Source: an uncultured Schlesneria sp. (GTDB lineage: Bacteria > Planctomycetota > Planctomycetia > Planctomycetales > Planctomycetaceae). From it: a stretch of 64,000 nt of DNA. This document shows, in pieces, positions 4,196 through 22,325 of this stretch. Below the pieces are notes generated by a model. It did no database searches. It saw nothing but the letters and a program-made list of their open reading frames with translations, and was not told the origin of the DNA. How positions within the stretch are numbered: the first letter of the stretch is position 1; each line of letters begins with the position of its first letter. The position numbers and the translations under genes were made by a program. The stretch is from assembly GCA_903871875.1 (NCBI GenBank), contig CAIQIR010000083.1:1-64000 (forward strand). Direction: 5' to 3'.

Positions 4196-5506
4196 TCAAT
4201 GTGGCAGGATCTGCACGCCAAAGCCCACGAAGTTGAGCAGCAGGTTGGAGTACAATTCACCTGGGCTGAAAAACAGCAACAACTGGTCTTCTGGTTGAAT
4301 GATAATTCGCTCGTTCGGGTCATGCAGGGCACGATTGAGATCGACACGGATGCGCAGTTGCTGTCCGTTGGGAAGTTTTCTGACAATCAGAGCACGCGTA
4401 GGGGGGAACACGTTACCAGGACCAGTACGGAAGATGGCAGCGTTGGTCCCTGGGCCGCCAGAAGCGCCGTTAACCAGAGCAATCGCTTCCAGCACATCGG
4501 TATCGCGATCACGAGGCAGCGGAACCTTTCCACCGGGCAATTGACCACCCGTGTAGAAGTTCTCGACTTCTCGCGGTGGCAGATAGACGACATCGCCGTC
4601 TTCCAGAATGATATCGTCTTCGGTGAACGGCACTGGTGCATCGGGATCGACTCGCAATGGAATCCGGATCAGCTGTCGCTCCCCTTGGACCCACTTGGAG
4701 GCAAATTCTTCAGGTGAGCCCGCGTCTTTGATTTGTTTTTGAATCATCGCAGGGTCGTTGTTCGCGGAGTCACGATTGCGGAAGACCCACACTTCACTGA
4801 ATACATCGATGCCCGGTAGTCCGCCGCTGGCAGCCAACGCATGCAGTACATCGTTTTCATAGGCTGGTAAGTCGATCACTTCGCCGTGGCCGATTTTCGT
4901 ATATGGGGCAGCGATTTTTGGTATGAACTGGGGGATCGGACTTTGGGCATCTTCACGCAAGACGACAACGCGGCGAACGCGGGGCCGAAGCAATGTCAGC
5001 ACAACTCGTTCGCGATCCTTCTGGATCACTCCGGCATCTTCGTAAGCGGCCCGAACGATGTCCGTTGCCTTTTCCAATGTTTGACCCCCCAGTTCTAAGC
5101 GACCCACCAAAGGCAGGCGAACCGATCCGTTCGAACGCACGTCGATCGGCACGCCGGTCGCGGGCGTCGCCACGCGACCATACGGTGGATAGTATTGGCC
5201 TAACATGGAGACGGGCGGGTGAATAATCGATTGATCATCGACTTTGGCTGGCATGATGCCGCCGACATAAACGCCCAACAGGTCGCCTTCGTCGACATGG
5301 TGCCCGTTGGAGGGGCGCTGTTGACTGAGCAAATTCAGATCGATCGGCGTCAAATGTTGCCGACTGCAAGTGCGGAACTCCGACGGAAGCCGGTAAGCCG
5401 GAATCGCGTCGCGAGTGCTCATGATGCAAGAAGTGGATGTCATCGCACACCCGACGCTCAGGCAACTCGAGGTCACGATCAAAATGATGAACGAGATTGG
5501 TTTCAT
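4196..5506 (-). CDS. Wza-like polysaccharide export outer-membrane lipoprotein
   Basis: Periplasmic/outer-membrane export protein of 436 residues, expected to form the channel through which EPS leaves the cell. The start was placed at the ATG giving a lipoprotein signal with cysteine 20 in the lipobox LSVGC. A longer frame of 14 residues upstream lacks a signal. A Poly_export domain begins near VDEGDLLGVYVGG and continues through NGSVRLPLVGRLELGG. SLBB-type beta-grasp repeats follow (LHALAASGGLPGID; VLEAIALVNGASGG). The protein ends with a hydrophobic stretch that could be the amphipathic C-terminal helix of Wza. It lies about 125 bp downstream of a lipoprotein gene on the same strand. The cognate wzc-like kinase is 14 kb away on the other strand. 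Confidence 0.9.
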   Translation of the reverse strand: MKPISFIILIVTSSCLSVGCAMTSTSCIMSTRDAIPAYRLPSEFRTCSRQHLTPIDLNLLSQQRPSNGHHVDEGDLLGVYVGGIMPAKVDDQSIIHPPVSMLGQYYPPYGRVATPATGVPIDVRSNGSVRLPLVGRLELGGQTLEKATDIVRAAYEDAGVIQKDRERVVLTLLRPRVRRVVVLREDAQSPIPQFIPKIAAPYTKIGHGEVIDLPAYENDVLHALAASGGLPGIDVFSEVWVFRNRDSANNDPAMIQKQIKDAGSPEEFASKWVQGERQLIRIPLRVDPDAPVPFTEDDIILEDGDVVYLPPREVENFYTGGQLPGGKVPLPRDRDTDVLEAIALVNGASGGPGTNAAIFRTGPGNVFPPTRALIVRKLPNGQQLRIRVDLNRALHDPNERIIIQPEDQLLLFFSPGELYSNLLLNFVGFGVQILPH

Positions 5507-5630
5507 GGTTGACCGATCCTTCAGCCCTTTGGACTCGCGCAAATCCACTTGACTTCCGTGTTGATTTAAAAACTTTCAGAATGTTTGGTCGCCACTGTGA
5601 CCAGCGGCCTGCAACGATACAGGTCGCATG

Positions 5631-6362
5631 TCAATCAAAACGGGTGTTTTGGTTGAATCCGAGAAGCATTGGGTCAGAGAGTCGGGATTGCGTCGAAGAT
5701 GTTTTGATCCAACTTCCGGAGGTTCGTTTCACCGATTTGATGTCGGAATTCAATTTCAGCGTCAGTGGCGATGGAGGAATGGTGGTTTCGCCCGTGGACG
5801 TTGTTCCCGTTTGCGAAGGTGTTTTTTCTTCGCTTGAATCAGGATCTCCAGAACCGGCGGGGGTATCCATCAACTCGTCTTCATCATCAGCATATTGCGG
5901 GCGCTGCTTCATCCCCAGAATCGTGCGGCCGAGCGGATAAGTCGCTTGGTCAGACGACAAACAACTCGGGTAGCACTGTCGGAACGTTCCGGAAATCGGT
6001 ACCGGGTGATAGCGGTCACGACAGGATGCGATCGCTGCCGCGGCTCCGTCGTGGTAACCCGAGTACCAATTCTCGATCGCGATCTCACCGTGTTCGGATT
6101 GGAATTTGTGAGACCAGTAGTGCTGCGGAGGTACCGGCGGGCATTCTCCGTCGCCGCCCATCAACACATCCGTGTATCCGTGCCGCCAACCGCAGGAGTA
6201 ATGCGACCAGGGAATTGACGAACATCGTTCGTCACCAGCAAACCACCACGCTCGATGGGCGCGGCACTTCTGTGCAGCGCGATATTCGCAATCCTGGAAC
6301 GTAGCGCATCCAATCGAGCTGACCAGCAATAATAGCTCGGCGCAGCGTCGCATCGACATCAT
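5631..6362 (-). CDS. Cysteine- and tryptophan-rich lipoprotein of unknown function
   Basis: Predicted lipoprotein of about 243 residues. A start at one of the clustered ATGs (6362, 6359 or 6353) gives a short signal sequence ending in the lipobox SSIGC. The mature N-terminal half has many Cys, Trp, Tyr and His residues, including WRHGYTDV and WYSGYHDGA. The latter resembles small repeats in planctomycete exported proteins that sit next to export genes. The C-terminal 90 residues are acidic and Ser/Thr/Pro-rich, probably disordered. The family is unknown to me. Same strand as the wza-like gene, so co-transcription is plausible and a role at the outer membrane in EPS secretion is an inference. 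The 267 bases between this gene and the next hold nothing I can support. Confidence 0.65.
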   Translation of the reverse strand: MMSMRRCAELLLLVSSIGCATFQDCEYRAAQKCRAHRAWWFAGDERCSSIPWSHYSCGWRHGYTDVLMGGDGECPPVPPQHYWSHKFQSEHGEIAIENWYSGYHDGAAAAIASCRDRYHPVPISGTFRQCYPSCLSSDQATYPLGRTILGMKQRPQYADDEDELMDTPAGSGDPDSSEEKTPSQTGTTSTGETTIPPSPLTLKLNSDIKSVKRTSGSWIKTSSTQSRLSDPMLLGFNQNTRFD

Positions 6363-6629
6363 GAGAAGCCTCCCTGCAAAGCCAGAATCCATTCAGGGAT
6401 GCACGCCGCGAGCTATTAGGTCGAACATCCTGTCGATGTGTGATCGGCAGATTTTCATGGACTAAAGATCATTTGTCGCAACCCAATGAGAATCGCTAGA
6501 ATCCCGACGGCAGTTGATTTCGGCAGGAACCGAAAAATCGGACGAACAAGAAGTTCCGGCATCATTGAATCACTTCGCAAAACAGCTTCAAACGGTAGAA
6601 CCGTTACAGCCGGAGTGTTTTGACAAACG

Positions 6630-8096
6630 TCAGCGATACTCGGGGGTCGAATTGCCCCAGTTTTGCCAGTTGGCTGCGAACTGTCGCATGAATTCTGCCG
6701 CATCCTCGGGCGAGAATGTCTGAGAATCAAACTGGCTTTGAACAACTAGTTCCCCCAGGGAAATGGTCAGTCCGATTCCAAGACGAGTTTTCGGGCGGAT
6801 TGGGGGAGCTCCTCCTGCCCGGACGAATTGAAGATTGCCGATGACTGGTCGGCCATTTTCTTCGGGAAACCGGCGTCGAACGCCACGAAAGGTGTCGCCC
6901 AAATTGGTGAGTACAGCGGTTGAGAAGCAAATGGGTATCTTCACGGCCGCGCCCACAATTCCCGGAACTGATTGAATTACGGGTAAGGCGTTGACCAGAT
7001 TGTATTGCGAACCGTGTTCTTCAATGTAATCCATTTCGGCGCGAATCGTGGCTAGCAGTGAAGGCCAGTCAAGGCACAGGCTGGTGTGTCTGGTGATGAA
7101 CACAAAACTCAGCCGATTCGCCGCCGGCAGAAATTGGTCGCTCGGTTCTCGCAAATCGACGGGAACGAGAATCCGGTACAGTCGATCGCTGCCTGATTCT
7201 CCGTGTGATCGATTCCATTTCGCGATCGAATTCAGCAGGATCGCGATTGCCACATCATTTAATCGAATGCGCGAACCGCGTAATCGATCACGAAATTGGG
7301 CCACCTCCGACCGGGAAAATCGGAAACTGAGAATCTCAATAGGCCCGCGTCCACGCAGGCGAGGAAGCTTTGTCGAAGTTCGTAATGGTGTGGGGTGCTG
7401 TGAGAGAAATTGGTAAATCGTGCGAATTCGTTGCATTAACGTCACGGGTTCTGCGGGAACAAGTTCGGTTTTGGGACGGGGCGGTGTGCGAGTAAATTCG
7501 CCGCGACGACGCAAGCGTTCATAATCCAGCTGGTCGAAGCGGACATGTTTCTGTTCCGGCGCCATGATGGCCGCATAGGCCGTGAGCCAATCCAGAATCA
7601 CCCGTCGAGCACCCCGGCCGTCACATACCGCGTGATGAAACGTGAACCGAATTTCCGAGTTGACTCCGTCGGTTGTTCCCGAAACGCGAAAGCCAGGTTG
7701 TTTCCTCAGATCGATCCGCAGGCTTCCCGATTCTGTCACCGGTTCACCCCATCTGACTTCATCGGAAGGAAAGACAACCGCCGTCCAGTGCCAACGCGAA
7801 TGGCATTTTCGGACGATGGCGCTGAGTAGCGGATTTCGTTGAATGACCTCACCCATGGCTGTTTCGAATGCCGCTTGGTGAAGCTGTCCGGTCAGTTCCA
7901 GTAAGACCGTATAGGTTCGGGGGTAATCACGGTGGTCATCAACCAGCATGAATTTTTCAAAAGCGGTGAGTGGCAACGGAAAGAGATCGTGCGGCGGCAG
8001 ATGTTTACAGGGCTCAAGCGGTTCGACGATCTCCGGTGTCGCGACACATGCGGTGTCCACGTCGAGAGAATCGGCCAATCGCGCACTGTGTTTCAT
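6630..8096 (-). CDS. Condensation/WS-DGAT-like CoA-dependent acyltransferase
   Basis: A 488-residue member of the condensation-domain/alcohol acyltransferase superfamily. These enzymes transfer acyl groups from CoA or carrier proteins to alcohols or amines. The catalytic signature HHAVCDG (HHxxxDG) lies at residues 154-160. PLTAFEKFML near residue 45 and LVPVDLR in the second half also fit the superfamily. The ATG at 8096 overlaps the stop of the Rieske oxygenase gene in an ATGA quartet, which implies translational coupling; I prefer it to a start 57 bases upstream. As the last gene of the polyketide operon it may esterify or amidate the product. The acceptor is unknown. WS/DGAT, PapA-type and NRPS condensation-like functions cannot be told apart here. 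Confidence 0.78.
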   Translation of the reverse strand: MKHSARLADSLDVDTACVATPEIVEPLEPCKHLPPHDLFPLPLTAFEKFMLVDDHRDYPRTYTVLLELTGQLHQAAFETAMGEVIQRNPLLSAIVRKCHSRWHWTAVVFPSDEVRWGEPVTESGSLRIDLRKQPGFRVSGTTDGVNSEIRFTFHHAVCDGRGARRVILDWLTAYAAIMAPEQKHVRFDQLDYERLRRRGEFTRTPPRPKTELVPAEPVTLMQRIRTIYQFLSQHPTPLRTSTKLPRLRGRGPIEILSFRFSRSEVAQFRDRLRGSRIRLNDVAIAILLNSIAKWNRSHGESGSDRLYRILVPVDLREPSDQFLPAANRLSFVFITRHTSLCLDWPSLLATIRAEMDYIEEHGSQYNLVNALPVIQSVPGIVGAAVKIPICFSTAVLTNLGDTFRGVRRRFPEENGRPVIGNLQFVRAGGAPPIRPKTRLGIGLTISLGELVVQSQFDSQTFSPEDAAEFMRQFAANWQNWGNSTPEYR

Positions 8097-9358
8097 AGGT
8101 CGATCGATGAAGTTGCAAGGTGGCAAGGAGGATTGATCGGAGAACAGTCGCAAGCCACAGCCGTCCTCACGTCACTTATTGTTGAGCACGAGGCCTCTGC
8201 GGTGGTTTGCTGCGATTGGTTCTGGAGCCATCGTTGGAATTCATAAATGCGTTCCTCGCAACGCCCTAGCATGCCTGGATTGTGCGAAGAATTGAGTCCT
8301 CGTTGAATTGCCGTGTAAAGTCGAAAGTCCTCTTGCAGAATCTTGAGCGTGATGCCGGCCACGAGACGTCCCCAGAGACGACTACATTGTCGCGACACGA
8401 AGGATTTACCCACGCGACCGAACTGATAGATCACCGATGTGCAGGTTTGCGATCCCGTGGGCCGCACGACATGTAGCAGGCTGACCATATCCGTGAGTGA
8501 AAACAGGATGTTGGGAAACAGATGATGTTGCCGGTAGGCGGATGTTGGAGCACGGTCGGTTAGCAGATGCAATGCTCGACCTTCAATTCTCTGAAACCAT
8601 GCATCGATTCGGGAATGAGGTGCAAAGGGCAGCGTGGTTTGGAACGAACTTCCCGTTTCGCCAAGGAAGTGTTCGGACCGCGCTTCGCCGGGGTCCTCGC
8701 GAAATGTTTCGGGATGGACAGCGGGGACATGGTAGGCTTCCAGCGTATTCTCGACTGGAATTTTCCAATTCACATGATGTGGAAACTCACGCGAGAGTAC
8801 GACTTCCCATCCTTCACCAAATCCGTGAAGCAAAGGTTCCAGTTGATCACCAGCAGCCGTTCTCAGGTCGGGGGCGATGGCGTCCAGATTGACAAAGACC
8901 AACGGTCCCAGCGTCTCCACGCGGTAGACAGGGATTCTTAACGATGCGCGATCAAGCGGCGCGAAATTCTGAGCCAGTGGGATTCGTTGTGTCGCGCCCG
9001 ACGCATCATATTCCCAACCGTGATACTGACATCGCAATTTTGGCGAGGATCCCTTTCGTTCGCTGGTCAGCAGGCAATGTCGGTGAGCACAGACATTGGA
9101 AACCGCGTGGATATTGCCCCCGATATTGCGAACTTGAATCGGCTGACCACAAATCTCGACAGTCAGGAAATCGCCGGGGCGCGATAAGTCGGTCTGAAGT
9201 CCGACAAAATGCCAACTCTTCGCGAACACGTTCGATACCTCCCACGAATAGCTGTCATCCGACCCATAGGCGGACGGGGGGAGTAAGTGCGGCAGTCGTT
9301 CAGTGGCGTGAAACACGGCGATCCCTTGATAACTAAGAGGAAAGCCAGGCGGCAACAT
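8093..9358 (-). CDS. Rieske non-heme iron oxygenase
   Basis: A 421-residue oxygenase resembling the alpha subunit of ring-hydroxylating enzymes. It should use a [2Fe-2S] Rieske centre and a mononuclear iron to insert oxygen. Rieske ligands are visible as CAH at residues 90-92 and CQYH at 110-113. The iron site is ENTLEAYHVPAVH, with histidines at about 210 and 215. QEDF near the C-terminus supplies the likely aspartate. The ATG at 9358 lies 26 bases inside the end of the synthase gene; upstream in-frame codons overlap that gene further and look non-native. No reductase or ferredoxin partner is in the operon, so electrons must come from elsewhere. It probably hydroxylates or desaturates the synthase product; the substrate is inference. 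Confidence 0.88.
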   Translation of the reverse strand: MLPPGFPLSYQGIAVFHATERLPHLLPPSAYGSDDSYSWEVSNVFAKSWHFVGLQTDLSRPGDFLTVEICGQPIQVRNIGGNIHAVSNVCAHRHCLLTSERKGSSPKLRCQYHGWEYDASGATQRIPLAQNFAPLDRASLRIPVYRVETLGPLVFVNLDAIAPDLRTAAGDQLEPLLHGFGEGWEVVLSREFPHHVNWKIPVENTLEAYHVPAVHPETFREDPGEARSEHFLGETGSSFQTTLPFAPHSRIDAWFQRIEGRALHLLTDRAPTSAYRQHHLFPNILFSLTDMVSLLHVVRPTGSQTCTSVIYQFGRVGKSFVSRQCSRLWGRLVAGITLKILQEDFRLYTAIQRGLNSSHNPGMLGRCEERIYEFQRWLQNQSQQTTAEASCSTISDVRTAVACDCSPINPPCHLATSSIDL

Positions 9359-12300
9359 AACCCGTAACGGCCAGCAGAGGGCGACGGTCATTCCCCCATA
9401 CGGTGATGTCAAAAGTGGCCCGCGTCTGGTTGACGTCCACAATTTGCGATCGAATCCAGCAGATTTCCGCAGGACGAGGCAAACGATAAAACGTCGCTCG
9501 TTTCGCGCTCTGGGGCAACGTGATCCCGGGACGAATGCAGTTCCACGCCAGAATGCCAGATGCAAATAACGTCGCATCGAACACCGCACTTGGCGTTAAC
9601 CATCTCGAAATGTCTCGTGCTGCTCCGGCCAATTCGCCCAGGGACGGTGCACTCACTCGCCCCCAGATTCGACGATTTTCGGGATTAATCGCATGTTTTC
9701 TCAAGCAACGTAAGGGACCACCGACGTAGAAACCGGATCCCTGAGGAGGATATTGTGTTGGTTGCCAATCAAGATTTCGTAGAGCCTGTCGATCCAACAT
9801 TTCGTCGAACTCGGATTCGGAGGTCGCCGATTTGAATTCGACGATCGCCTTCGCATACAACCGATCCTTGCTTACCAGCGTGCCATTCCGCGAATAGAAT
9901 TCAGCCGTCAATTCAGCGGCAACGGAGTCATCCGATACCCGAGTTGAAACCACTTGCATTTCGCGGGGGCGATCGGTGGGAAACTTGACGCTGGTTAAGA
10001 TTTCTAGATCCCTCAGACTCGTCGGACGTGAACCGTTTTGAGCGAGAGCTGCTCCTTCCGCCAGAAGTTCGGCCATCATCACCATCGGGAGCAATGGCCG
10101 GCCATTCAAACAATGTTCGCTCAAAAAGGGATCGGCCACAGGATTCAGCACTGCCGAGGCCGCAAGCGAGTCATCAGGTCCAGACGACAGTCGCTCAAGC
10201 AGTGGCCCCACGCTGGTACCGTCAGTTTTGCCTCCGGCACACTCCGATCCCAGCACAATCCGATCTGCCGGATAGAACATCCGATAGTAGCGCATATCGG
10301 TGATCAAGACTTCGCTGATCGGCAGGCCGGCCTCGACTTCACTCAGGAAATGTGCAGCTCCTTCAGCCGCTGGCATCAGGTGCATGCCAATCGATTGCAG
10401 GGCCAAACGAGTTTCTGGCTTCGTCGCCATTCCAATGTTGTCCCAGGCATGCCAATGAAACACCGTCGCGGGAATTGTCGGCCGCAATTGCCGCTGCCAG
10501 TGGACGAGTTTGGCGAGCATCTCGTTCGCCAGAGAATAATCGGTGTGCCCATTTGCTCCAAAGCGACCACTGATCGATCCAAAGGCAATTAGTGCCTGAA
10601 GGGGGTCGCGCTCGGTGAGTGCCATCAGATTCAGCAGGCCGTCGATTTTAGCTCTGAGGCACTGCTCAACCATCGATTGCTCTTTGCGTTGAAAGCTGGC
10701 GTCTTTTCCTATACCCGCTCCGTGAATGATGCCATCGATCGATCCGAACTTTTGACGAATGTTGCCCAATACTTCCGCCAGTTGCGAACGGTTCGCTACG
10801 TCGCACGAATGATAGGACACTGAAAGCCCCGTGGCCCGAAACTGATTCAGCGAACGGTCGATCTCCAATGCCTTTTCAAAATCTTTCCAAGCTGTGAGTG
10901 GTGATTGCCCAAGTTTTCTTGCGCGACGCATGACATCTGCACGCAGTGCCGTGGCGTCGGTCTCGGCTCGGTGCCGATCATCATCAGTCAATCGGGGCTC
11001 AGGAGCCGTCCCCACCAGATGAAAATGAACCGTTGGAAAGCGGTCAGACATTCGCTCGACGACATAAGCCGTGATACCCCTGGCACCACCGGTGACCACC
11101 CAATTACCAGTCGGAGTCAATTGATGCGACGAATACTCCTTGATGGGTTCAGGAGTGGCTCGCAATACGGTTCGCGCGTGCCGGTCCCAGCCGATTTCGA
11201 CGTCATAACTAGGTTCGGTCAACTCGACGCAAATCGCATCGACCACGGCTGACGTAGGCGAATTTGTGGGCAGGTCGAGCAGCTTAATCGGAACGGTTCG
11301 ATAGCCATTCACCCAGCATTCGATCAGGATCGATTTGAACAATCCCGCCAGTGCGCCGCTCTCCGCCGAGGAAATTTCGTGAGCGACGCCAAAGTCGCCT
11401 CCGAGCGCGGTGACTCCGATCAGGCTGGCATCGTCCAGCAGGTTCGATTGTTCCACCAGACTGAGCCATTTCTGACACAGCCAATAGAGGGACGTGATGC
11501 CGGACTCGCGTCGATGTTTCCAGGCCGTTTCGTCGAGCGTCGGTGCCGCCTGCGCGTCGCGTGGCGTTAAGACAAACAGGTGCGGTGACGGTGTTGTTTT
11601 CCAGATCGAATCCAATGCGGCAACCGCTTCTTCACGATTTCCCAAGGCGGGAAGAAGCGAGACTGTAACCCCGAATGTTTTCAATCGTCGCGCCAGCTCT
11701 TCGCATCCCGAGTTGTCGCCGACGATGATCGCCCCCCCGGAAAAATCCGGCGCTCGTCCAGACCAGCGGCGGATCTCCGGCGGAGACATTTCGAGTCGAA
11801 ATCGTCGCGTCAATTCCGGCAATGGCTGATCGAAAACGATCTGTGGAAACTCAAGAGCTTCGAATCTTTCTTGAGCAAGGACCGCATCGTCGTCAAAGGA
11901 AACCGCGTTCTGCTCCGATTCAAGAAGTGGCTCATCCTCACCGAGAGGGAAGGTCCATGAATTTCGCAGCCGTAAGAGGTTTTCCGGGCTGACGTTTGCG
12001 CCAACGGCGACGCCGCGTAGCTCTGCTTCCTCCGTGAAGGACAGCGCCTCCCAGCCGGATATACCCGACAGAGTTGGGGCGATCAGCCTCGTCATTTCTG
12101 TTCGATCGGCGAAATCAAATAATTGGTGTCGTAAGGTTTTGCGGTGAGTTCGACCCCAGCTCTGGCCGCGTTCGAATGCTGCCGATGCCACAGCCGCCAG
12201 CGGGACCACCGGTTCGTCATTCTCAGAGTCACGCCGTCGCGATGGAGATTCCCGTTTGACTGTTTCGCTAGGAACGGCGTCCGCAGGCTGGTGACCAATC

Positions 12301-15300
12301 GCTTCGTTTGTTGATTCGTTTGGAAGGGACGATTCATGGCCATGTTCTTCCGAAATGGCAAGCGGCCCATCAGCTCTGGTGCGAAGTGACTCTTCGATCA
12401 TGTCACGAGTTTGTCGAAGTGTTCGAATCTCTAACAACACCGTGCGGCTCGCCGCGTCGGGCAACGGTAATTGGAAGTGATCACGAACTTCGCCAATTAA
12501 TTGAGCTTTCGCGATGCTGTCGATTCCAAGGTCCGATTCCAAGTCGGCATCAAGATCAATTACGTCGCGCGGATACCCTGTTTTCTCGACGACAAAATCA
12601 ATCAAAAAATCAGCAGTGGCCGAAGCCGTCGCCGACACTTCCTGCGAAGGGGGCTCGATAGCAGCGACGACATCATTCGTTGTTGGTCGACAATTGTGAT
12701 GGAATGCGTTTGTTTCTTCCAAGCGGCCAAAATCAGCTGCGGTCGGTTCTGGAGGAGCCAAATCAGTTGGGATTGGTTGAAGCCAATCTCGCTTGCCGGA
12801 CGACAGTCTCAAGAGTTCGAGCAGATCATTGACCGTTCGAAGTTCGTGGATTTGCGTTGCTTCCCAGGTCGTTTCGAGATCGAAGTACTCGCGTAGTTCT
12901 CCCAGGATTTGGACCTTGCGAATACTATCGATTCCGAGGTCGGCTTCCAGATCCCACTGCATCTCGATGATATCGGGAGGATAGCCGGTCTGCTCGACGA
13001 TGATATCGATCAGGAACTGCGACAGAGCATCGTCGTTGCCGGAATCAGATCGATAGGTGGCGAACGCATCGGCTTTCAGAGACAGGCCCTCGCCAATCGT
13101 CGAAGAAAAATCCGTGTGATTGCGCAGTACTGACGGCTCAAGTGGAGCGGGGAACTCAATTTGCGGGGTGGGGATTGTGTTCCTGAAAAATGCAGTGGTT
13201 GAAGCCGCCTGATTTGCCAGAATGCCTGAGGTGATTCCTACGGCTTCCATGGCCGCTTGAATTCGCTGCCGCTGTAGGTGAAGGCTCAGTGACGGATCAT
13301 CCATCGGAACGACAAAGGCATTTCGATTACCAATAATTTGCTGGGTGATTTTCGTCAGAATGCGGCCCGGTCCAACTTCCACGAAAACGCGTACATCTTC
13401 GGCAAGCAGCCGCTCCACATAGTTCGTCCAGTAAACCGGTTCGATCAATTGTCGCGAGAGGTTGTCAATGATTTCGACACGATCTGAGACGAATCGTCCC
13501 GAAACACTACTCAGCACGGGAATTCCTGGCGGTCGCCAACGGTGCTGACCCAAGGCGATCTGCAATGCCGGTCGCGCGGCCTCCAGCAAGGGCGTGTGGA
13601 ACGGGCTACCTACCGGGAGCTGAATCGCGGGTATTCCCAGTTGTTTCACTCGGGCCGCCAGTTCCGTCACTGCCTGTTGTGTACCCGCAATGACCGTTTG
13701 TCGAGGAGCATTTCCGTGCGAAACAAAAATATCCGTTCGAGCAGCCACGAGCGGACGAACTTCCTTCAGCGTCGCGGCGATTGACAACATCGCGCCCGTT
13801 CCGTGGGGACAACCGAGAATCGCGTTTGATCGAGCCAATGTGATGGCGAATGCCGATTCGAAATCTAGACTACCGGCTGACACGAGTGCGGCGTATTCAC
13901 CAAAACTATGTCCGATCAAAAAGTCCGGATTCAGTCCCCATTCCGTGGCTGCCTCAAAAGCGCAGACGTCCGCCGTCAGCATGGCGAACTGCGTGGCCTG
14001 TAAATCGTCGCCGGGCAAAGTTTCTTCACCAGTGATCCACGGCGAACATTCAGAGATCCCTAAACGTAGCAGTGCTTGGTCGGCCCGCTGCAACATCTTT
14101 GCCGCGGATTCAGACGACTTGATCACATCCGATAGCATACCCGTGCGATGTGATCCCTGTCCGGGAAAGAGGGCTGCCATGCGTGGTCGTTCTTCGGGCA
14201 ATGGGACACAGTAGTAAATCCCCTGCTCCTGAAGGCGTGTCGATGGCTGGCCCGGCTGCAATGTGTCCAAGAGCAACTTCAGTTTCTGTCGAAGGTGCTG
14301 CGGTGCCGAGACGATCGCCAAGCGATAAGGAGCCCGCGCGGGAATGCCGCTGCTCACTCCATCATCGCTTGGTCGTTCGGGGGCCGCCATCAGATCTACG
14401 ATTCGTCGACGCAATTCAAACTCGTCGATGCCCCACATTCGATAGATTTGCGTGGGTTGATCCTCAGGCTCTGAGCGTCGTGCTTCAATTTGATGTTGAC
14501 CGTTTGATACCGTCATCGCAGAGGACTTTCGAATCGTCATGGGCCGACTGAGTTCGGGAGCAGATGACTCTTTGGAAGCGGAGCGGACAGCGCTTTCGCT
14601 CGTCGGTTGGTTGTTGATCTCATTCGGCTTCATTTCGCAGACTGCTTGGTATTCGCCAGCAGTGGTGGTTGTTCGGAATGTCGTTGTTCCGCAGGATTCG
14701 CTGTCTATTTCCGATCTGACAGTAGCGCCGAGGATTTCAAGCAATCCACTCGCCCCTTGCCAATGTCCGAATTGATGCGTCAGCGACGATAATTCCGGTG
14801 ACGGAACGAATTTCTCAACCCCACTCGCCACCGCTTCCCGTGAAGGGTGATCCGAAACCAAAGTCGATCTGACGGTGTCGCGAGAGGTCGCACGCACATC
14901 GCGAATGATGCCGTGAATGCGATCTTGATGGGCGTTTGCATCCGCCAAACGCCGCAGTAGCAGTGCGACGACGCCTTCGCCAGGCGCTGGTCCTTTCCCA
15001 TGCCTGTCATTTTGACTGAGTGCCGATCCCCCAGTTTGATAGTTCCAAGCTTCGAATCCCGCGGCATCCAGGTCTCGTTGCGCAGCGGCGCAGAAGACGA
15101 AATCCACCACATTCGTCGCGAGCAAATGTTGAGCAGCCTGCAGTGCTGCCAAGCCGGAGTTGTCGCCGGCGTCAATTGCCAGTGCTCCCCCCATAATGTC
15201 CAGTGTCTTGGCGATACGCGACGCTTGTGTGCTGCAGGTGAAACTGCCGGTTTGATCTTTGATTGCGGGATAACTCGTCAGGATTTGTGATTGAACCGCG

Positions 15301-17303
15301 GCGCAAACCTGATGAATCTCTCGTTCATTCCAGTCGCGGTTCCGAAGTGTCGTGATGAATTCATCGACGATTTCCGGCAGCCTGAGGCCAATTTGCAGCT
15401 GATGAGAAAAGTCTCCACCAAACAGAGTACCAACCACGACGGCCGCTCGGGAACGATCAAAGGGCCGTATTCCATAGCCACTTTCGTCCAGGGCCTGTTG
15501 CGCGGCATCTAATAACATGAATTGCAATGGATTCGCATGTTCGATCTGCAAGGGAGGAATATGATGCTTCCGCCAGTCGTATTTATACCCAAGAACATAT
15601 CCCCCTTTGGCATGCTGATAGGCATGGCGAATGGTCGGCCTTGATTCCCAGAGGGGCGTGTCTCGCCAACGTTCTGTCGGTGGGGAGCTGAGCTGTGATT
15701 CACCCGACGTCAGTAACTGTCGAAAAGAATTGAGATCGAATGCACCGGGAGCAATGATCCCGCGTCCAATGACGGCGACCGATTTGTCCTTCGCCGCATC
15801 TTGATCATCCTGTTGTCGATCGCGATCTCGGTGGGTGTTCTTCGAAAGTGTGGGCGAAATCGAAGCCGGCTGGTCCAGATCAATGGGACCGTCGACAACG
15901 ACGTGCACGTTCAGGCCGCCAATCCCGAATGCGTTGATACCTGCGCGGCGCGGTTGATCAGTGACGTCGGGCCATGCCATCATGGTTGTGACAGGAACGA
16001 ACGGATTTTCCGACCATCCAATTGCAGGATTCGGGTGTGTCAAGTTAATGGTTGGCGGAATCAAACCTCGCTGCATGCTGAGCACGCATTTTAGTAAACC
16101 GGCCAGACCAGCGGTTTCCAGTGTATGCCCAAGATTCGATTTCACACTTCCCAATGGAATTTTGCGATCATGGGCCGAGTCCTGGAAAAATGCGGAAAGC
16201 GCTTCCAGTTCGGTGGCATCTCCGACCTGTGTACTCGTTGCATGGGCCTCCAAGTACTGAATCGAGCGCGGCGAAATGTCGTCAGCGTAGGCCCGCCGTA
16301 CCGCTTCAAGTTGACCTTCTTTTCGAGGTGCCCACAGGCTGCGACCCCGGCCATCCGAGGAGATGCCGATCCCTCGAACGACGCCTTGAATGGTGTCGCC
16401 GTCCGCCAGCGCCCTGGACAAGGTCTTGATCAGAATGACGACGTATCCTTCCGCATTCACTAATCCGTCAGCGGCGGCGTCGAACGGGCGCGATCCTGTC
16501 GCGCTGCAAGATTGTGCTTGCGAAAACAGGATCAAACTATCCGTCTTGGAGTAGGAGGCACTCGAAACAACCGCTTGTTCGATTTCCCCCTGTGCCAGTG
16601 CCGCACCGGCCAGCACCAGTGCCATCAAGGATGACGCGCAGGCTGCGTCGATGACCATTTGTGGTCCGTCCAATTGGAAACGACGGGCCACAAATTGAGC
16701 GGCAAAATGTGCCTCAAGTCGGGGAAGATCGCTGCTTCTGACAGGACGCCGTCGCTGAATCCTGGCGACGACTTCGGCCAGAATATCGTACCGTTCCGAT
16801 TCTGAGAGAGTCTGAAATTCGGGAATGGTGGCCACGCTCTCTGCCACTTCGGGAATCATGCTGCCCAGCACAAGTTCTCCGCCGAGCGACGATCCGCAGG
16901 AATGCCCCACATAGACGCCAGTTCGGTGTCCTGACATTGTCTCGGCCGACCAGCCTGCGTTCGAGCGAGCCGCATCGACCACTCCACACAAGATCTCGTG
17001 GCTCGGATCCCAGCACAACTTCTCCCGATCGATCGACCGCAAATCTGCAGAGGGATCGGTGGGGCGAGGTGGAATCAGCCCGGAAATCGACGAATAGGTC
17101 TTTGATTGTTCGCCGCATTGTGACGAGAGATAGAGACGTCGGTCCATTCGATCGTCTGGCATCTCTCGAACGCCACTCGCTCCGGTCGCCATCAAAGTCC
17201 AAAACGCGTCCAGGTCATCAGCCCCCGGAAGCCGGCACGCCATGCCAACGATGGCTAACGGTTCCGAGGGAAACTTCTTGCTGCAGTCAGGAGTCGTCAA
17301 CAT
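9333..17303 (-). CDS. Type I polyketide/PUFA-like synthase, KS-KS(dead)-AT-ACP-ACP-(C45-like)-KR-DH
   Basis: A 2656-residue iterative synthase. Ketosynthase 1 (about 12-475) has Cys222 in DAACASS, His354 in EAHATST and His393 in SNLGHT, so it looks active. A second KS-like domain (about 506-865) has DAGDNSG where the active Cys motif should be and lacks the EAHGT-type loop; it resembles a chain-length factor. The acyltransferase (about 1040-1340) has GQGS and Ser1133 in GHSFGE with His1236. Two carrier domains have LGIDS at Ser1460 and Ser1596. Residues 1705-1785 resemble the N-terminal chain of C45 acyltransferases. A ketoreductase (about 1850-2340) has TGGARGI at 2071 and Tyr2256. A hotdog dehydratase has His2397, Gly2401 and Pro2406 (HxxxGxxxxP) and Asp2576. 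No enoylreductase or thioesterase is seen. The start overlaps the upstream reductase gene by 7 bases. The product is unknown; a long-chain unsaturated or hydroxylated acyl chain is likely. Confidence 0.93.
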   Translation of the reverse strand: MLTTPDCSKKFPSEPLAIVGMACRLPGADDLDAFWTLMATGASGVREMPDDRMDRRLYLSSQCGEQSKTYSSISGLIPPRPTDPSADLRSIDREKLCWDPSHEILCGVVDAARSNAGWSAETMSGHRTGVYVGHSCGSSLGGELVLGSMIPEVAESVATIPEFQTLSESERYDILAEVVARIQRRRPVRSSDLPRLEAHFAAQFVARRFQLDGPQMVIDAACASSLMALVLAGAALAQGEIEQAVVSSASYSKTDSLILFSQAQSCSATGSRPFDAAADGLVNAEGYVVILIKTLSRALADGDTIQGVVRGIGISSDGRGRSLWAPRKEGQLEAVRRAYADDISPRSIQYLEAHATSTQVGDATELEALSAFFQDSAHDRKIPLGSVKSNLGHTLETAGLAGLLKCVLSMQRGLIPPTINLTHPNPAIGWSENPFVPVTTMMAWPDVTDQPRRAGINAFGIGGLNVHVVVDGPIDLDQPASISPTLSKNTHRDRDRQQDDQDAAKDKSVAVIGRGIIAPGAFDLNSFRQLLTSGESQLSSPPTERWRDTPLWESRPTIRHAYQHAKGGYVLGYKYDWRKHHIPPLQIEHANPLQFMLLDAAQQALDESGYGIRPFDRSRAAVVVGTLFGGDFSHQLQIGLRLPEIVDEFITTLRNRDWNEREIHQVCAAVQSQILTSYPAIKDQTGSFTCSTQASRIAKTLDIMGGALAIDAGDNSGLAALQAAQHLLATNVVDFVFCAAAQRDLDAAGFEAWNYQTGGSALSQNDRHGKGPAPGEGVVALLLRRLADANAHQDRIHGIIRDVRATSRDTVRSTLVSDHPSREAVASGVEKFVPSPELSSLTHQFGHWQGASGLLEILGATVRSEIDSESCGTTTFRTTTTAGEYQAVCEMKPNEINNQPTSESAVRSASKESSAPELSRPMTIRKSSAMTVSNGQHQIEARRSEPEDQPTQIYRMWGIDEFELRRRIVDLMAAPERPSDDGVSSGIPARAPYRLAIVSAPQHLRQKLKLLLDTLQPGQPSTRLQEQGIYYCVPLPEERPRMAALFPGQGSHRTGMLSDVIKSSESAAKMLQRADQALLRLGISECSPWITGEETLPGDDLQATQFAMLTADVCAFEAATEWGLNPDFLIGHSFGEYAALVSAGSLDFESAFAITLARSNAILGCPHGTGAMLSIAATLKEVRPLVAARTDIFVSHGNAPRQTVIAGTQQAVTELAARVKQLGIPAIQLPVGSPFHTPLLEAARPALQIALGQHRWRPPGIPVLSSVSGRFVSDRVEIIDNLSRQLIEPVYWTNYVERLLAEDVRVFVEVGPGRILTKITQQIIGNRNAFVVPMDDPSLSLHLQRQRIQAAMEAVGITSGILANQAASTTAFFRNTIPTPQIEFPAPLEPSVLRNHTDFSSTIGEGLSLKADAFATYRSDSGNDDALSQFLIDIIVEQTGYPPDIIEMQWDLEADLGIDSIRKVQILGELREYFDLETTWEATQIHELRTVNDLLELLRLSSGKRDWLQPIPTDLAPPEPTAADFGRLEETNAFHHNCRPTTNDVVAAIEPPSQEVSATASATADFLIDFVVEKTGYPRDVIDLDADLESDLGIDSIAKAQLIGEVRDHFQLPLPDAASRTVLLEIRTLRQTRDMIEESLRTRADGPLAISEEHGHESSLPNESTNEAIGHQPADAVPSETVKRESPSRRRDSENDEPVVPLAAVASAAFERGQSWGRTHRKTLRHQLFDFADRTEMTRLIAPTLSGISGWEALSFTEEAELRGVAVGANVSPENLLRLRNSWTFPLGEDEPLLESEQNAVSFDDDAVLAQERFEALEFPQIVFDQPLPELTRRFRLEMSPPEIRRWSGRAPDFSGGAIIVGDNSGCEELARRLKTFGVTVSLLPALGNREEAVAALDSIWKTTPSPHLFVLTPRDAQAAPTLDETAWKHRRESGITSLYWLCQKWLSLVEQSNLLDDASLIGVTALGGDFGVAHEISSAESGALAGLFKSILIECWVNGYRTVPIKLLDLPTNSPTSAVVDAICVELTEPSYDVEIGWDRHARTVLRATPEPIKEYSSHQLTPTGNWVVTGGARGITAYVVERMSDRFPTVHFHLVGTAPEPRLTDDDRHRAETDATALRADVMRRARKLGQSPLTAWKDFEKALEIDRSLNQFRATGLSVSYHSCDVANRSQLAEVLGNIRQKFGSIDGIIHGAGIGKDASFQRKEQSMVEQCLRAKIDGLLNLMALTERDPLQALIAFGSISGRFGANGHTDYSLANEMLAKLVHWQRQLRPTIPATVFHWHAWDNIGMATKPETRLALQSIGMHLMPAAEGAAHFLSEVEAGLPISEVLITDMRYYRMFYPADRIVLGSECAGGKTDGTSVGPLLERLSSGPDDSLAASAVLNPVADPFLSEHCLNGRPLLPMVMMAELLAEGAALAQNGSRPTSLRDLEILTSVKFPTDRPREMQVVSTRVSDDSVAAELTAEFYSRNGTLVSKDRLYAKAIVEFKSATSESEFDEMLDRQALRNLDWQPTQYPPQGSGFYVGGPLRCLRKHAINPENRRIWGRVSAPSLGELAGAARDISRWLTPSAVFDATLFASGILAWNCIRPGITLPQSAKRATFYRLPRPAEICWIRSQIVDVNQTRATFDITVWGNDRRPLLAVTGYVAAWLSS

Positions 17304-18943
17304 GACCTGCTCCCCACCGTAATGCCGCCATGGGTAACAAACGGCAATGACAATACGGACTCGTCTGAAGGCGTTTCGTAGAAGGATCCCAGATGGCTTC
17401 GTAGGGCTTTCATCAAGGGGAGAACTCGCGGCAATTCTTGCATGCTGCCGGTAACGGCAAATAGTCCAGACCGGATTCCGTCTTCCAGCGAAAAGTCTTC
17501 ATCAAGCCAAGCACGGAATGCGGTCGCGGAACCGTAGAGCTGCGAAATTTCGCCCTGTTCGACTGTGGGGCGGTCACAATGAATCCCGGACGGACCAACA
17601 GAAATCCGCCAATATCCTCCGCCCGACCCGGAAAGACAAAGGGAAAGTCTGAAGTCTGCTTCCGGCGTTGCGGATGGAACGTCATCGTCGTGAGGAGATC
17701 GGTCATTGCCCGGGAAAGACGTTGAAGATGTCACTTGCTGCAGCTCCTTCGAGCCTTTCGATACGTCTTCCAGGCAGCGTCGCGGTTCAATTTCTCGGCC
17801 AGAAATCGCGGGATGATCCTCGTCCTTGAATTCGGCACGAATGGCATACTGGAATGCACGAGTGAGCATCTGGATTGTCACCGGAGGGCAAGAGCGACCG
17901 ATGATGTGTTCACGGAACTGCGAGTTGTCGAACACGGGGTCCGAAATGAAATACGATCGATACGTCTCCATATGTTGGCGAAACCCCGCCAGAACTGTTT
18001 GGCTCGATTTTTCTGTCGTTCGACTGACCTCGGAAGCGGCCAATGCTGTTGACGCCGAAATTGTTTCCGACAACGCTTCCAGCATCGACGACATAATCTC
18101 GCGACCATCCGTGGGGGCAGGATTGGTGAGATGGTAAATTCCGCCGTGGCAGGACGAGTCACGAATCATTGAGCCAATCGCGTCACTGACCCAATCGACA
18201 GGAACGAGATTCCTCGACTCGTCGCCGGCCAACTCAAGCTGCTGAAGCAGGAAATCTTGAGATGGAATGAGTAAGGGGGCCTCACGAAGCAGCGTCCAGA
18301 CAAGCTGCAGCGGTTTATAGAGGGCATTAAAACTTGGTGAATAACCCGTGTCAGATTCACCAATAATCACTGATGGTCGATAGATCGTACGCGTAAATTG
18401 TCCTGCGGCCTTCTCAACAAGTTGTTCCGCGAGGCACTTGGAACGCTCGTAGACGTTTCCAAACGGGCTGTCTGACGAATGCAGTTCCTCTAGTACGGAT
18501 GCGGAACGGTTGACCTGTCCGCACGAATAGGCCGTTGAGATATAGTGAAAAGCAGCGGTTCGGGAATCACGGCAAATCTCCAGTAGGTGTCGCGTTCCGT
18601 CCACGTTGGTTCGCATGGGTTCGCCTGAAGCGGACGCCTGAAAACGAACGCTTGCTGCACAATGGACAACGGAAATGACATTTTGACGAAACCAGGTCAA
18701 ATCAGCATCCGATAGTCCAACACGCTCTCGCTGAAGCTCGCCCGCGAGCACAATTGGACGTTGCAACCGAATTCCAAGGCGTTGCTCCCACGTGGCAAGC
18801 AACTGGTCAACACGATCTGCAGCCGAGACGCCACGTCGGCCGCGAGCCAGTACGGCCACGGGCTCACGACGCCGCAATGCTTCGCAAAGCAAGTACTGGC
18901 CGAGTAGCCCTGTGATTCCTGTAAACAACCGCCAGCCAGACAA
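17297..18943 (-). CDS. Thioester reductase-like SDR with C-terminal SCP2-like domain
   Basis: A 548-residue protein. The N-terminal 360 residues match the thioester reductase/male-sterility (NAD_binding_4) group. The cofactor loop is TGITGLLG at 8-15, followed by HYISTAY near 133 and Tyr165/Lys169 in YERSK. Such enzymes release acyl chains from carrier proteins as aldehydes or alcohols using NADPH. Residues about 430-525 (strands around FRLSLCLSGSGGGYW, ending in VTGSMQELPRVLPL) resemble an SCP2 lipid-carrier fold; this is inference. The start is a TTG, supported by GGAGG six bases upstream; no ATG fits the conserved N-terminus. First gene of the operon, and it overlaps the synthase gene in ATGTTGA. 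It is the probable chain-release enzyme, since the synthase has no thioesterase. Confidence 0.85.
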   Translation of the reverse strand: MSGWRLFTGITGLLGQYLLCEALRRREPVAVLARGRRGVSAADRVDQLLATWEQRLGIRLQRPIVLAGELQRERVGLSDADLTWFRQNVISVVHCAASVRFQASASGEPMRTNVDGTRHLLEICRDSRTAAFHYISTAYSCGQVNRSASVLEELHSSDSPFGNVYERSKCLAEQLVEKAAGQFTRTIYRPSVIIGESDTGYSPSFNALYKPLQLVWTLLREAPLLIPSQDFLLQQLELAGDESRNLVPVDWVSDAIGSMIRDSSCHGGIYHLTNPAPTDGREIMSSMLEALSETISASTALAASEVSRTTEKSSQTVLAGFRQHMETYRSYFISDPVFDNSQFREHIIGRSCPPVTIQMLTRAFQYAIRAEFKDEDHPAISGREIEPRRCLEDVSKGSKELQQVTSSTSFPGNDRSPHDDDVPSATPEADFRLSLCLSGSGGGYWRISVGPSGIHCDRPTVEQGEISQLYGSATAFRAWLDEDFSLEDGIRSGLFAVTGSMQELPRVLPLMKALRSHLGSFYETPSDESVLSLPFVTHGGITVGSRSC

Positions 18944-19687: not shown

Positions 19688-22117
19688 ATGAAACCATCAG
19701 TACCTCAACGTCCGCATGACGAGTTTCATGTTTCTCAGATCGCTGTCATTTTGCGGAAGAGATGGGTGATCGTAGCGGCGGCTGTCGCGGTGGGGGCCGC
19801 ATTGACCATTGGTCTGCAAGTGCTTTCCACACGCAAGTACGAATCGTCGGCTCAATTGCTGGTGATGCGGAAAGATCCTCGCTTGGCCGCCAAGGGTGTT
19901 GACACAACCGGGGAATCGGAAGTGCGAGTCACGGAAGAATTACTCGCCACGCATATGCAGATGCTGCAAAGCCGCAGTATCGTCGAAAGTGCCTTGAATG
20001 CCGGAGGATTTGCGGAATTGCCGTCGATCGCGGCCAACGTCAATGCGCTTCGAAAGCCGTCCGACTATGTGATCGACAATTTAACGGTGTCTCGAGGCGG
20101 TAAAGGGCAGGCCCGAACAGCACATGTCCTCAATGTTTCGTTACGGAGTACTTCTCCGGAAGACGCGCAAACCGTGTTAAAGGCGATCGTCCAACAGTAT
20201 CAAACGTTCTTGTCGGCCAAGTTCCAAGATGTCAATCAAGAAGCTGCATCGCTGATCTCTCAAGCACAGACTGTGCTTGCTTCGGAACTAGAGGAGGCGG
20301 AAAAGAACTACGAACAGTTTCGGCAACAGTCTTCGAATCTGCTGTGGAAAACGGGTGGTACGGAGAGCACAAACACGCACCGGGTACGATACGACGAAAT
20401 CCTGCAAGAGATAACCAATCTGCAACTGTCCCGTGCCGACTCCGAATCCAAGCTGGATTCCGTCGAGGCCTTTTTGAATGGGCGAGACGCCAGCCAATTG
20501 ACAGATCTTGAGCGTCTGTCACTGGTGGATGAAAAGAATCTGACTCGCGTTGGCTTGCTGCTGATGGTGCAAAAGGGCGAGACAGAATCTCCGAATTTCC
20601 AGGCAGAACAGCCGATTCGATTGGCACACGCTCAGGCAGAGTTTGAGAACTATGCCGAGTTGCAATTGAAGGCAGAAACGCTGCTGACGGAATTGGGGCC
20701 GCGTCATCCCGATGTGATCAACATCCGCAAGCAAATGAGTTCTTTGGCCGACTTCCTGTCAAATCAGAAGCAGCAAATGAAGAGCGGAAATTCGATCGTC
20801 TCGCTGGATTCCGGCGCGCTGTTTTCCGCTTATCGGCAACTGCTGAAGAATGACATCATCGCGATGGAGCGTCGCGAAGCGCGATTGAAAAGCCTTGCTG
20901 AAGACACCATCCAACTTGCCAGTGAAATGGTCACCGACGAAATCCAAGTTGATTCTCTGCGCCGGGAAGTGCAAAGAAAGCAAGTGCTGTTTGACGCTGC
21001 GGTGGATCGTTTGCGCGACATCAACTTGGCGAAAGACTATGGTGGATTCATCAACGAGGTTCTGGCAGAACCCGAATTGGGAAAGAAGGTCACACCGAAA
21101 TTGACGATTTCCCTGGCGGTGGGCATTTTTCTGACGATGCTGATCTGTGCCGCTGGTATCGGGATCGCCGAATACCGGGATCGACGATTCCGCACAATCG
21201 AAGATCTGCAGGCAACGCTACGAGTCTCGGTGTTGGGGCGGATCCCCTCAGTTGTTCAGACGGCCAACAAGAGCAGTTCGCTGTTCAAGCGACGCAACGC
21301 TCAAACGCCGCGTGCTCCTCAATTACTCGATCCCGAGACACGCGGTGCGGATGCGTTCCGTTTGCTGCGTACCTCCCTGATCTTTTCCGAAGGCGAAGAC
21401 TTTCGGCAAATCCTGTGTATCACCAGCCCGAATCCCGCCGATGGAAAGTCAACGGTGGTCGGCAATCTGGCAGTCAGTTTGGGGCAACTTGGTCGTAGCG
21501 TCCTGGTGATCGATTGCGATTTGCGTCGACCAACCCAGCATGAACTGTTCACGCTGTCGAATGACAGAGGATTGACAAACCTGTTGAACGAGGATCTCGA
21601 CCCCAGCGACTTGATCCAAAGCACTCCTTATAAAAACGTCCAATTGCTTCCTCGTGGTACAGAGGTTCCTGATCCGGCTGAATTTCTGGCGACCGGACGG
21701 TTTGCAAGACTGTTGGATTCCTTGAGGGAGAAGTACGACCATATTCTTCTCGACTGTCCGCCCGTGCTGCCTGTCACCGACGCGATGGCCTGTGCGGCAA
21801 TCTCCGATGGCGTTTTGTTTGTGATCCGAGTTGAACGGACGTCGCAACTTCATGCTCAAGCCGCCTGTGCGACGTTGCGTCACGCAGGGGCCGATGTATT
21901 GGGGGTGATCGTCAATGGAATGGCGCCTGGAAGTCTCGACGACGCGACCTATGGTTATGAGTATTCGGACGACGATTACCCACGGTACTCGAAATCGTTT
22001 ACCCGTGAAGGTTCTCCCGCAGAGTTTCGCTCGGCATCGGCAACTTCCCTATTGGGACCTCGAGTTTCCTCCGCCCTACGGCGGAATGGAAAGCACGATA
22101 ACGGCAAACCGACATAA
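19688..22117 (+). CDS. Wzc-like polysaccharide copolymerase with BY-kinase domain
   Basis: An 809-residue inner-membrane protein that should control EPS chain length and couple polymerisation to export. A Wzz-type domain begins near residue 14 with a membrane segment at about 27-45. Long coiled-coil regions fill the periplasmic part. A second membrane segment lies near 468-490, before the CPS-type ATPase. The bacterial tyrosine kinase has a Walker A ending DGKST at about 585-589, Walker A' VLVIDCD and Walker B ILLDCPP. A tyrosine-rich patch, YGYEYSDDDYPRY, at about 755-767 is the likely autophosphorylation cluster. First gene of the EPS cluster and directly behind the sigma-54 promoter. The partner export lipoprotein gene is at 4.2-5.5 kb. 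Confidence 0.92.
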   Translation: MKPSVPQRPHDEFHVSQIAVILRKRWVIVAAAVAVGAALTIGLQVLSTRKYESSAQLLVMRKDPRLAAKGVDTTGESEVRVTEELLATHMQMLQSRSIVESALNAGGFAELPSIAANVNALRKPSDYVIDNLTVSRGGKGQARTAHVLNVSLRSTSPEDAQTVLKAIVQQYQTFLSAKFQDVNQEAASLISQAQTVLASELEEAEKNYEQFRQQSSNLLWKTGGTESTNTHRVRYDEILQEITNLQLSRADSESKLDSVEAFLNGRDASQLTDLERLSLVDEKNLTRVGLLLMVQKGETESPNFQAEQPIRLAHAQAEFENYAELQLKAETLLTELGPRHPDVINIRKQMSSLADFLSNQKQQMKSGNSIVSLDSGALFSAYRQLLKNDIIAMERREARLKSLAEDTIQLASEMVTDEIQVDSLRREVQRKQVLFDAAVDRLRDINLAKDYGGFINEVLAEPELGKKVTPKLTISLAVGIFLTMLICAAGIGIAEYRDRRFRTIEDLQATLRVSVLGRIPSVVQTANKSSSLFKRRNAQTPRAPQLLDPETRGADAFRLLRTSLIFSEGEDFRQILCITSPNPADGKSTVVGNLAVSLGQLGRSVLVIDCDLRRPTQHELFTLSNDRGLTNLLNEDLDPSDLIQSTPYKNVQLLPRGTEVPDPAEFLATGRFARLLDSLREKYDHILLDCPPVLPVTDAMACAAISDGVLFVIRVERTSQLHAQAACATLRHAGADVLGVIVNGMAPGSLDDATYGYEYSDDDYPRYSKSFTREGSPAEFRSASATSLLGPRVSSALRRNGKHDNGKPT

Positions 22118-22325
22118 CCCATTGCAATGGTTTTGAATCATTGCGGCGAAGAAACGATGAACCTCCCGCTCGGTAAGAGTGTGGATATGACATAGCCCGC
22201 ATGCCTCGGCATGCACGACTGTCTGAATGAACGTGCGCTCGCGTGTTTATAATTTCGGTTTGTGCAAGGTCTTAATGATTAAGACGCTTACACTTTGCCC
22301 TGTGGCAACATTTGGAGAACGGCAC

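Follow-up and report, generated by a model that had tools for sequence, protein, structure and literature searches.

Organization of the operon

We analyzed a stretch of 64,000 nucleotides (positions 1 to 64,000 of contig CAIQIR010000083.1, assembly GCA_903871875.1), hereafter called the window, from an uncultured planctomycete, Schlesneria sp. Four open reading frames lie in tandem on its minus strand between positions 6630 and 18943. They encode a thioester reductase (TR), a polyketide-type synthase, a Rieske oxygenase and an acyltransferase with an HHxxxDG motif (AcT). A preliminary description of the window had proposed this four-gene operon, and all four frames were recovered where it placed them. 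The gene set and its near-constant companion, a gene for a Wzy_C protein, suggest an undescribed lipid that serves the sugar coat of the cell.

The TR and synthase genes overlap by 7 bases (ATGTTGA) and the Rieske and AcT genes by 4 bases (ATGA), as initially described. A further overlap of 26 bases between the synthase and Rieske genes, which assumed a start at 9358, was rejected on start-codon evidence, because the methionine of homologous Rieske proteins, be it N-terminal or internal, aligns with residue V15 of the window protein. This residue is encoded by the GTG at 9316, which stands 16 bases past the synthase stop and has an AAGGGA just upstream. Judging by this alignment, GTG 9316 is the most likely start, 9358 being less likely.

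The synthase (9333..17303, minus strand) is an iterative type I enzyme of 2656 aa, in which Pfam identifies a ketosynthase (KS), an acyltransferase domain (AT), two PP-binding domains, a ketoreductase (KR) and a dehydratase (PKS_DH_N). The first KS (15867..17264; AACASS, EAHATST, SNLGHTLE) has the Cys-His-His triad of an active enzyme. The second (14604..15761; AGDNSG) has lost the active cysteine and is, by this substitution, a chain-length factor (CLF) rather than the second KS of the original domain assignment, which otherwise stands. The order is thus KS-CLF-AT-ACP-ACP-KR-DH, with an AT of malonyl type by its motifs (13314..14186; GHSFG, SPFH), two tandem acyl carrier proteins (ACP; 12384..13031; LGIDSI), a KR (10404..11126; GGARGI, S-Y-N) and a dehydratase (DH; 9354..10226; EHCLNGRPLLP and a conserved Asp). 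The catalytic residues of the AT, ACPs, KR and DH are kept across twelve relatives, two of which have a single ACP. The best NCBIfam match of the synthase is omega_3_PfaA (TIGR02813), at 614 bits against a cut-off of 1010. A classical polyunsaturated fatty acid (PUFA) synthase was rejected on this score below the curated cut-off.

The TR (17297..18943, minus strand, TTG start) matches NAD_binding_4 in Pfam (6e-45) and the Thioester-redct domain in NCBIfam (4e-36). It keeps the GxTGxxG and YxxxK motifs of the NAD_binding_4 fold, here as GITGLLG and YERSK, and its fold matches in the PDB are terminal reductase (R) domains of polyketide and non-ribosomal peptide synthases (8v1x, 4u7w, 4w4t). In three relatives TR and synthase form one protein in a single reading frame, with TR at the N-terminus (L189, 894-10001; L162, 6940-14703; L178, 1227-7472). 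These fusions support the action of TR, as an acyl-ACP reductase, on the synthase product. The TR had been described with an SCP2-like tail. No SCP2 match was found by Pfam in the window protein itself, but three of six orthologous tails have one (best 1.5e-6). The assignment of the tail (about residues 432-523; 17375..17650) as a divergent SCP2-like lipid-binding domain rests on these relatives, since the TR fold search returned the R domain and nothing for the tail. The aligned tails share a G-GGG-W core, with predicted strands followed by helices. A PDB profile search with the tail gave weak SCP2-type matches and only one match below 0.001, which lies in the C-terminal region of a protein with a Lactamase_B domain.

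The Rieske non-haem iron oxygenase (8093..9316, minus strand) has Rieske and Ring_hydroxyl_A Pfam domains above cut-off, and its metal ligands (CxH/CxxH of the Rieske centre; ExxHxxxxH and an Asp forming the 2-His-1-carboxylate site) are invariant in 11 homologues. It stays far below the cut-off of the glycine betaine monooxygenase GbcA model NF058607 (98 bits, cut-off 670). In AcT (6630..8096, minus strand), a condensation / WS-DGAT / PapA5-like protein, the HHxxxDG motif corresponds to H154, H155, D159 and G160 and is invariant in ten homologues. Its NCBIfam matches to WS/DGAT (1e-7) and PapA5 are weak. The score against the WS/DGAT wax ester synthase model TIGR02946 is 31 bits for a cut-off of 310, and the sequence match to the solved wax synthase 7nxg is weak as well (E 0.01).

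Conservation of the gene set and its partners

The distribution of the operon in bacterial genomes was analyzed with a pattern scan, based on the Rieske alignment, that covered 84,980 named genomes. The order TR-PKS-Rieske-(FabL)-AcT, PKS standing for the polyketide-type synthase, recurs in more than 20 loci, mostly in Planctomycetota with a few in other bacteria; many contigs stop inside the cluster, and not every locus displays all genes. The four genes are therefore conserved together, and an oddity confined to the window is ruled out. Carriers include Rhodopirellula europaea 6C, Aporhodopirellula aestuarii, a metagenome-assembled genome of Vicinamibacteria and further unassigned bacteria, and the set also recurs within the window's own family. 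An earlier phylum-wide Rieske search at E<=1e-80 in 392 genomes had found the window only; this cut-off was too strict for the search to inform on absence. In a tree of KS-CLF sequences, all 19 Rieske-linked synthases form one clade apart from all 18 others, with a support of 100/100. The second group includes a genome (G044) with two more distant Rieske genes nearby.

Two observations concern other Rieske genes. Several relatives have a second, divergent Rieske gene near the operon (L033:2116-3243 in G162; L035:4511-5653 in G085; L039:6729-7892 in G141; and L170), which is not found in the window genome. In Gemmataceae and related bacteria (L180, L183 Zavarzinella formosa, L187, L191, L192, L194), a Rieske homologue (34-38%) is found a few kb away from a KS-AT-ACP-KR synthase that is of a different type and is divergently oriented.

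Most loci of the family contain an additional gene, for a short-chain dehydrogenase/reductase (SDR), between the Rieske and AcT genes. The best PDB match of this SDR is FabL (3oic, 2e-54; next best 6e-37), and by this match it is an enoyl-ACP reductase (ER) of FabL type. FabL is the ancestral partner of the synthase family, since it also adjoins most of the non-Rieske KS-CLF synthases. Close FabL proteins are absent from the genomes of the window, G135 and G071 (best 33-36%), and the window operon is therefore a derived, ER-less form. Among the window genes between 1312 and 28386 we found no FMN enoyl reductase of PfaD type.

A second partner is a phosphopantetheinyl transferase (PPTase) of HetI/Sfp type, which follows the operon in four loci (L154, L164, L165, L167) and whose best match is HetI (1e-18). 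In three genomes (G126, G132, G133) a PPTase-like gene adjoins, at a locus separate from the operon, the gene of an exported protein described below. Among the scanned genes of the window there is no PPTase, in agreement with the preliminary description, but two are encoded elsewhere in the window genome. That description had missed that FabL is an ancestral fifth member, that several relatives have the PPTase gene in the operon, and that the operon is tied to a specific Wzy-type polysaccharide system.

Association with a Wzy-type polysaccharide pathway

Within the window's family, 16 of 170 genomes contain the operon: fifteen with the operon-type Rieske gene, and G071, which has the synthase and AcT without an adjacent Rieske gene. 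Two proteins encoded close to the window operon follow this distribution. The first is a Wzy_C protein (O-antigen ligase/polymerase-like, PF04932; 1312..2802, minus strand), whose subfamily (E<=1e-40) is present in 14 of the 16 operon genomes and in none of the 154 others. The second is an exported protein with a Tat/Sec-like N-terminus (3071..4126, plus strand) and without Pfam or NCBIfam match. It was found in 13 operon genomes and, by profile, in G066 (14/16), and at the cut-off used in none of the 154 others. The pattern of operon and markers is exact within three genera (15, 18 and 5 genomes, sizes taken from genome numbering). Operon and Wzy gene are on separate contigs in five genomes (G066, G116, G126, G132, G133), so that linkage by itself cannot account for the association, which is counted here without correction for shared ancestry. 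In three of these (G126, G133, G066) the unlinked Wzy gene is clearly clustered with genes for Wza, WbaP or glycosyltransferases. Of the new evidence, this link with a single Wzy pathway is the strongest, and it points to a lipid of the cell surface.

Profile searches found core polysaccharide markers no more than 10 kb away from 11 of the 24 operon loci and from 0 of the 16 non-Rieske KS-CLF loci (Fisher p 0.001). In G162, L154, L164 and L165 a Wzy_C gene comes after AcT in the same orientation. In L152 (G141) it lies on the same strand between FabL and AcT, broken by a frameshift or an error. The operonic Wzy_C of G141 (L039, about 10460-11890) appears as two overlapping frames, an apparent frameshift, and an intact second Wzy_C stands at the far end of the glycan cluster. 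G141 belongs to the same GTDB genus as the window genome. Downstream of the operon we found Wzc and WbaP in L189, and WbaP in L161.

In the window, the operon sits inside a cluster of Wza-like, Wzy_C, Wzc/BY-kinase, WbaP-type and glycosyltransferase genes, and comparable glycan settings were seen in G135, G141, G162, G085 and G071. Domain and NCBIfam scans identify a Wza-like polysaccharide export protein (4196..5548, minus strand), a Wzc-type chain-length determinant / tyrosine autokinase (19688..22117, plus strand) and a WbaP-type undecaprenyl-phosphate sugar phosphotransferase (22227..23885, plus strand). By neighbourhood comparison, a conserved 253-aa protein without family (5631..6392, minus strand) adjoins Wza in G135 and G071. 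Further into the cluster lie two adjacent membrane Acyl_transf_3 proteins (32485-35688), likely sugar O-acyltransferases, and two proteins of about 480-500 aa without clear family (25030-26466 and 28383-29879, the latter weakly DUF6418), which are flippase/polymerase candidates. The Wzy_C subfamily has no NCBIfam match, and PF04932 is present in the window protein and its relatives. Judged by eye, the window protein has an Asp where WaaL and PglL usually carry the catalytic His, and another His is invariant. The predicted structure of the exported protein, computed from only four sequences, was unusable (pLDDT 49).

Proposed function and comparison with known systems

Planctomycetota have unusual envelopes, whose chemistry is poorly known, and attach firmly to surfaces. 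The reading that we favour, to which we give an even chance, is that a synthase of PUFA/heterocyst-glycolipid type makes a long-chain lipid that is released reductively, oxidised and esterified, and that is dedicated to a single pathway of surface polysaccharide. The PPTase would activate the ACPs, and KS, CLF and AT would extend a long chain from malonyl units, processed in every cycle by KR and DH. In most relatives a trans-acting FabL-type ER would complete the reduction; in the window lineage a housekeeping ER may help, or double bonds may stay. TR, with its lipid-binding tail, would free the chain as an aldehyde or alcohol, the Rieske enzyme would oxidise it, and the HHxxxDG enzyme would esterify a hydroxyl. 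The lipid may then act together with the glycan made by the co-inherited Wzy-dependent pathway, whether as anchor, acceptor or overlay. The hydroxylated or oxidised long-chain alcohol, subsequently acylated, that was first proposed agrees in its logic with the TR-PKS fusions, the intact catalytic residues and the R-domain fold. The sequences show the gene content and order, the intact residues, the single synthase clade, the fusions and the co-occurrence with Wzy_C and the exported protein; what we infer is the product itself, how long its chain is, in which order the reactions run, where oxidation takes place, which acyl donor and acceptor are used, and whether the lipid is bonded to the glycan.

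Several points weigh against this reading. About half of the operon loci have no polysaccharide marker in the available flank, often owing to short contigs. As the markers derive from sequences similar to those of the window, they are found more readily near operon loci, and the p values take no account of common descent. Part of the co-occurrence could stem from the transfer of an ancestral cluster as a unit. The window has no FabL partner, and the Wzy_C protein may be a ligase or a polymerase, WaaL-type ligation being possible despite the Asp in the usual place of the catalytic His.

A stronger form of the favoured reading is that the polyketide-type lipid, and not lipid A, a phospholipid or undecaprenol, is the final anchor of the Wzy-dependent polysaccharide. 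The synthase would provide a long-chain oxidised alcohol, and Wzy_C and the exported protein would join or place the glycan, giving a molecule similar to lipopolysaccharide. We regard this form as unlikely.

The alternative that survives best, a tentative one and on balance rather doubtful, is modelled on the heterocyst envelope: a long-chain lipid that stays free, resembling a wax ester or glycosylated afterwards, would form a layer of its own, and the polysaccharide a separate, simultaneous one, both needed for one coat without a covalent bond. The operon parts correspond to the heterocyst glycolipid list (PMC11804610), the PPTase of the relatives is closest to HetI, AcT can esterify a lipid alcohol, and in the five genomes listed above the operon and the Wzy gene do not share a contig. 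In G162, L154, L164, L165 and L152, Wzy_C is part of the lipid operon and has its orientation, which argues against two separate layers, as does the operon itself, in which no hglT-like glycosyltransferase or HgdBC exporter was identified.

Two other explanations are improbable. In the first, the HHxxxDG enzyme would take the chain off the synthase ACP and place it directly on a hydroxyl of a sugar, in the manner of PapA enzymes acting on trehalose, the TR product being minor or a matter of proofreading; HHxxxDG enzymes such as PapA5 accept acyl chains from a PKS ACP and the locus is a glycan cluster, but no gene is tied to the synthase as tightly as TR, which in three relatives is even part of the same protein, so that reductive release is central, and the two membrane Acyl_transf_3 enzymes fit for sugar acylation are already in the cluster. 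In the second, equally hard to sustain, the product would be a diffusible metabolite or polyene pigment unrelated to the envelope, that is a conjugated polyene aldehyde or alcohol modified by the Rieske enzyme; KS-CLF-KR-DH without ER is indeed a domain set of polyene/enediyne type, and the genomes of the window, G135 and G071 lack FabL, but nearly all other members of the clade have it and the ER-less lineage retains the envelope co-occurrence.

If the lipid anchors the glycan, it would represent a new way of tethering a bacterial surface polymer; if it does not, it would still be a planctomycete counterpart of the cyanobacterial heterocyst coat. The operon makes an undescribed envelope lipid concretely accessible to testing and links it genetically to a single polysaccharide system; cultured genera that include carriers are, for example, Rhodopirellula and Aporhodopirellula. 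In the open-access literature we found no description of the cluster, of planctomycete long-chain diols or hydroxy acids, or of a lipid-anchored polysaccharide with a PKS, in agreement with the initial statement that no product is described for this gene set. An hglE-KS cluster is reported by antiSMASH for Kothea flammea, with no product given.

The suggested comparison with heterocyst glycolipid (hgl) and PUFA (pfa) clusters was borne out in parts and logic, with the PfaA cut-off missed and with added partners. The known heterocyst glycolipid parts are KS, CLF, AT, ACP, KR, DH, TER and PPTase (PMC11804610). Like the cyanobacterial hgl island, the operon combines KS, CLF, AT, ACP, KR and DH with TR logic for a long-chain alcohol and with a PPTase, of HetI type in operons of relatives and encoded elsewhere in the window genome, and its envelope function would be paired with a polysaccharide layer. 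Unlike in the hgl island, the synthase domains are fused in a single polypeptide in which AT and the tandem ACPs follow the CLF, the ER is a FabL-type SDR, and a Rieske oxygenase and an HHxxxDG acyltransferase are added. Pfam recognised no hglT or HgdBC near the operon, no search with cyanobacterial hgl proteins having been made. The KS-AT-ACPn-KR(-DH) order, the LGIDSI ACPs and the best NCBIfam match recall PfaA-type PUFA synthases, which differ by the lack of a CLF directly after KS, between KS and AT, in the same protein; the operon also has no PfaD-type ER. In the parts consulted of Shulse and Allen 2011 (PMC3098273), none of the "secondary lipid synthase" types described combines TR, Rieske and AcT. 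As for the single partners, AcT has the HHxxxDG site and the size (about 490 aa) of bacterial WS/DGAT and PapA5 but not the WS/DGAT score (31 bits vs 310), and Wzy_C shares PF04932 with the WaaL/PglL/Wzy membrane glycosyltransferases but forms a subfamily of its own, with Asp for the usual catalytic His. The SDR of the relatives, not present in the window genome, resembles Bacillus subtilis FabL (enoyl-ACP reductase III) far above other solved SDRs. Rieske, HHxxxDG and FabL-type partners were not described together in the sources searched.

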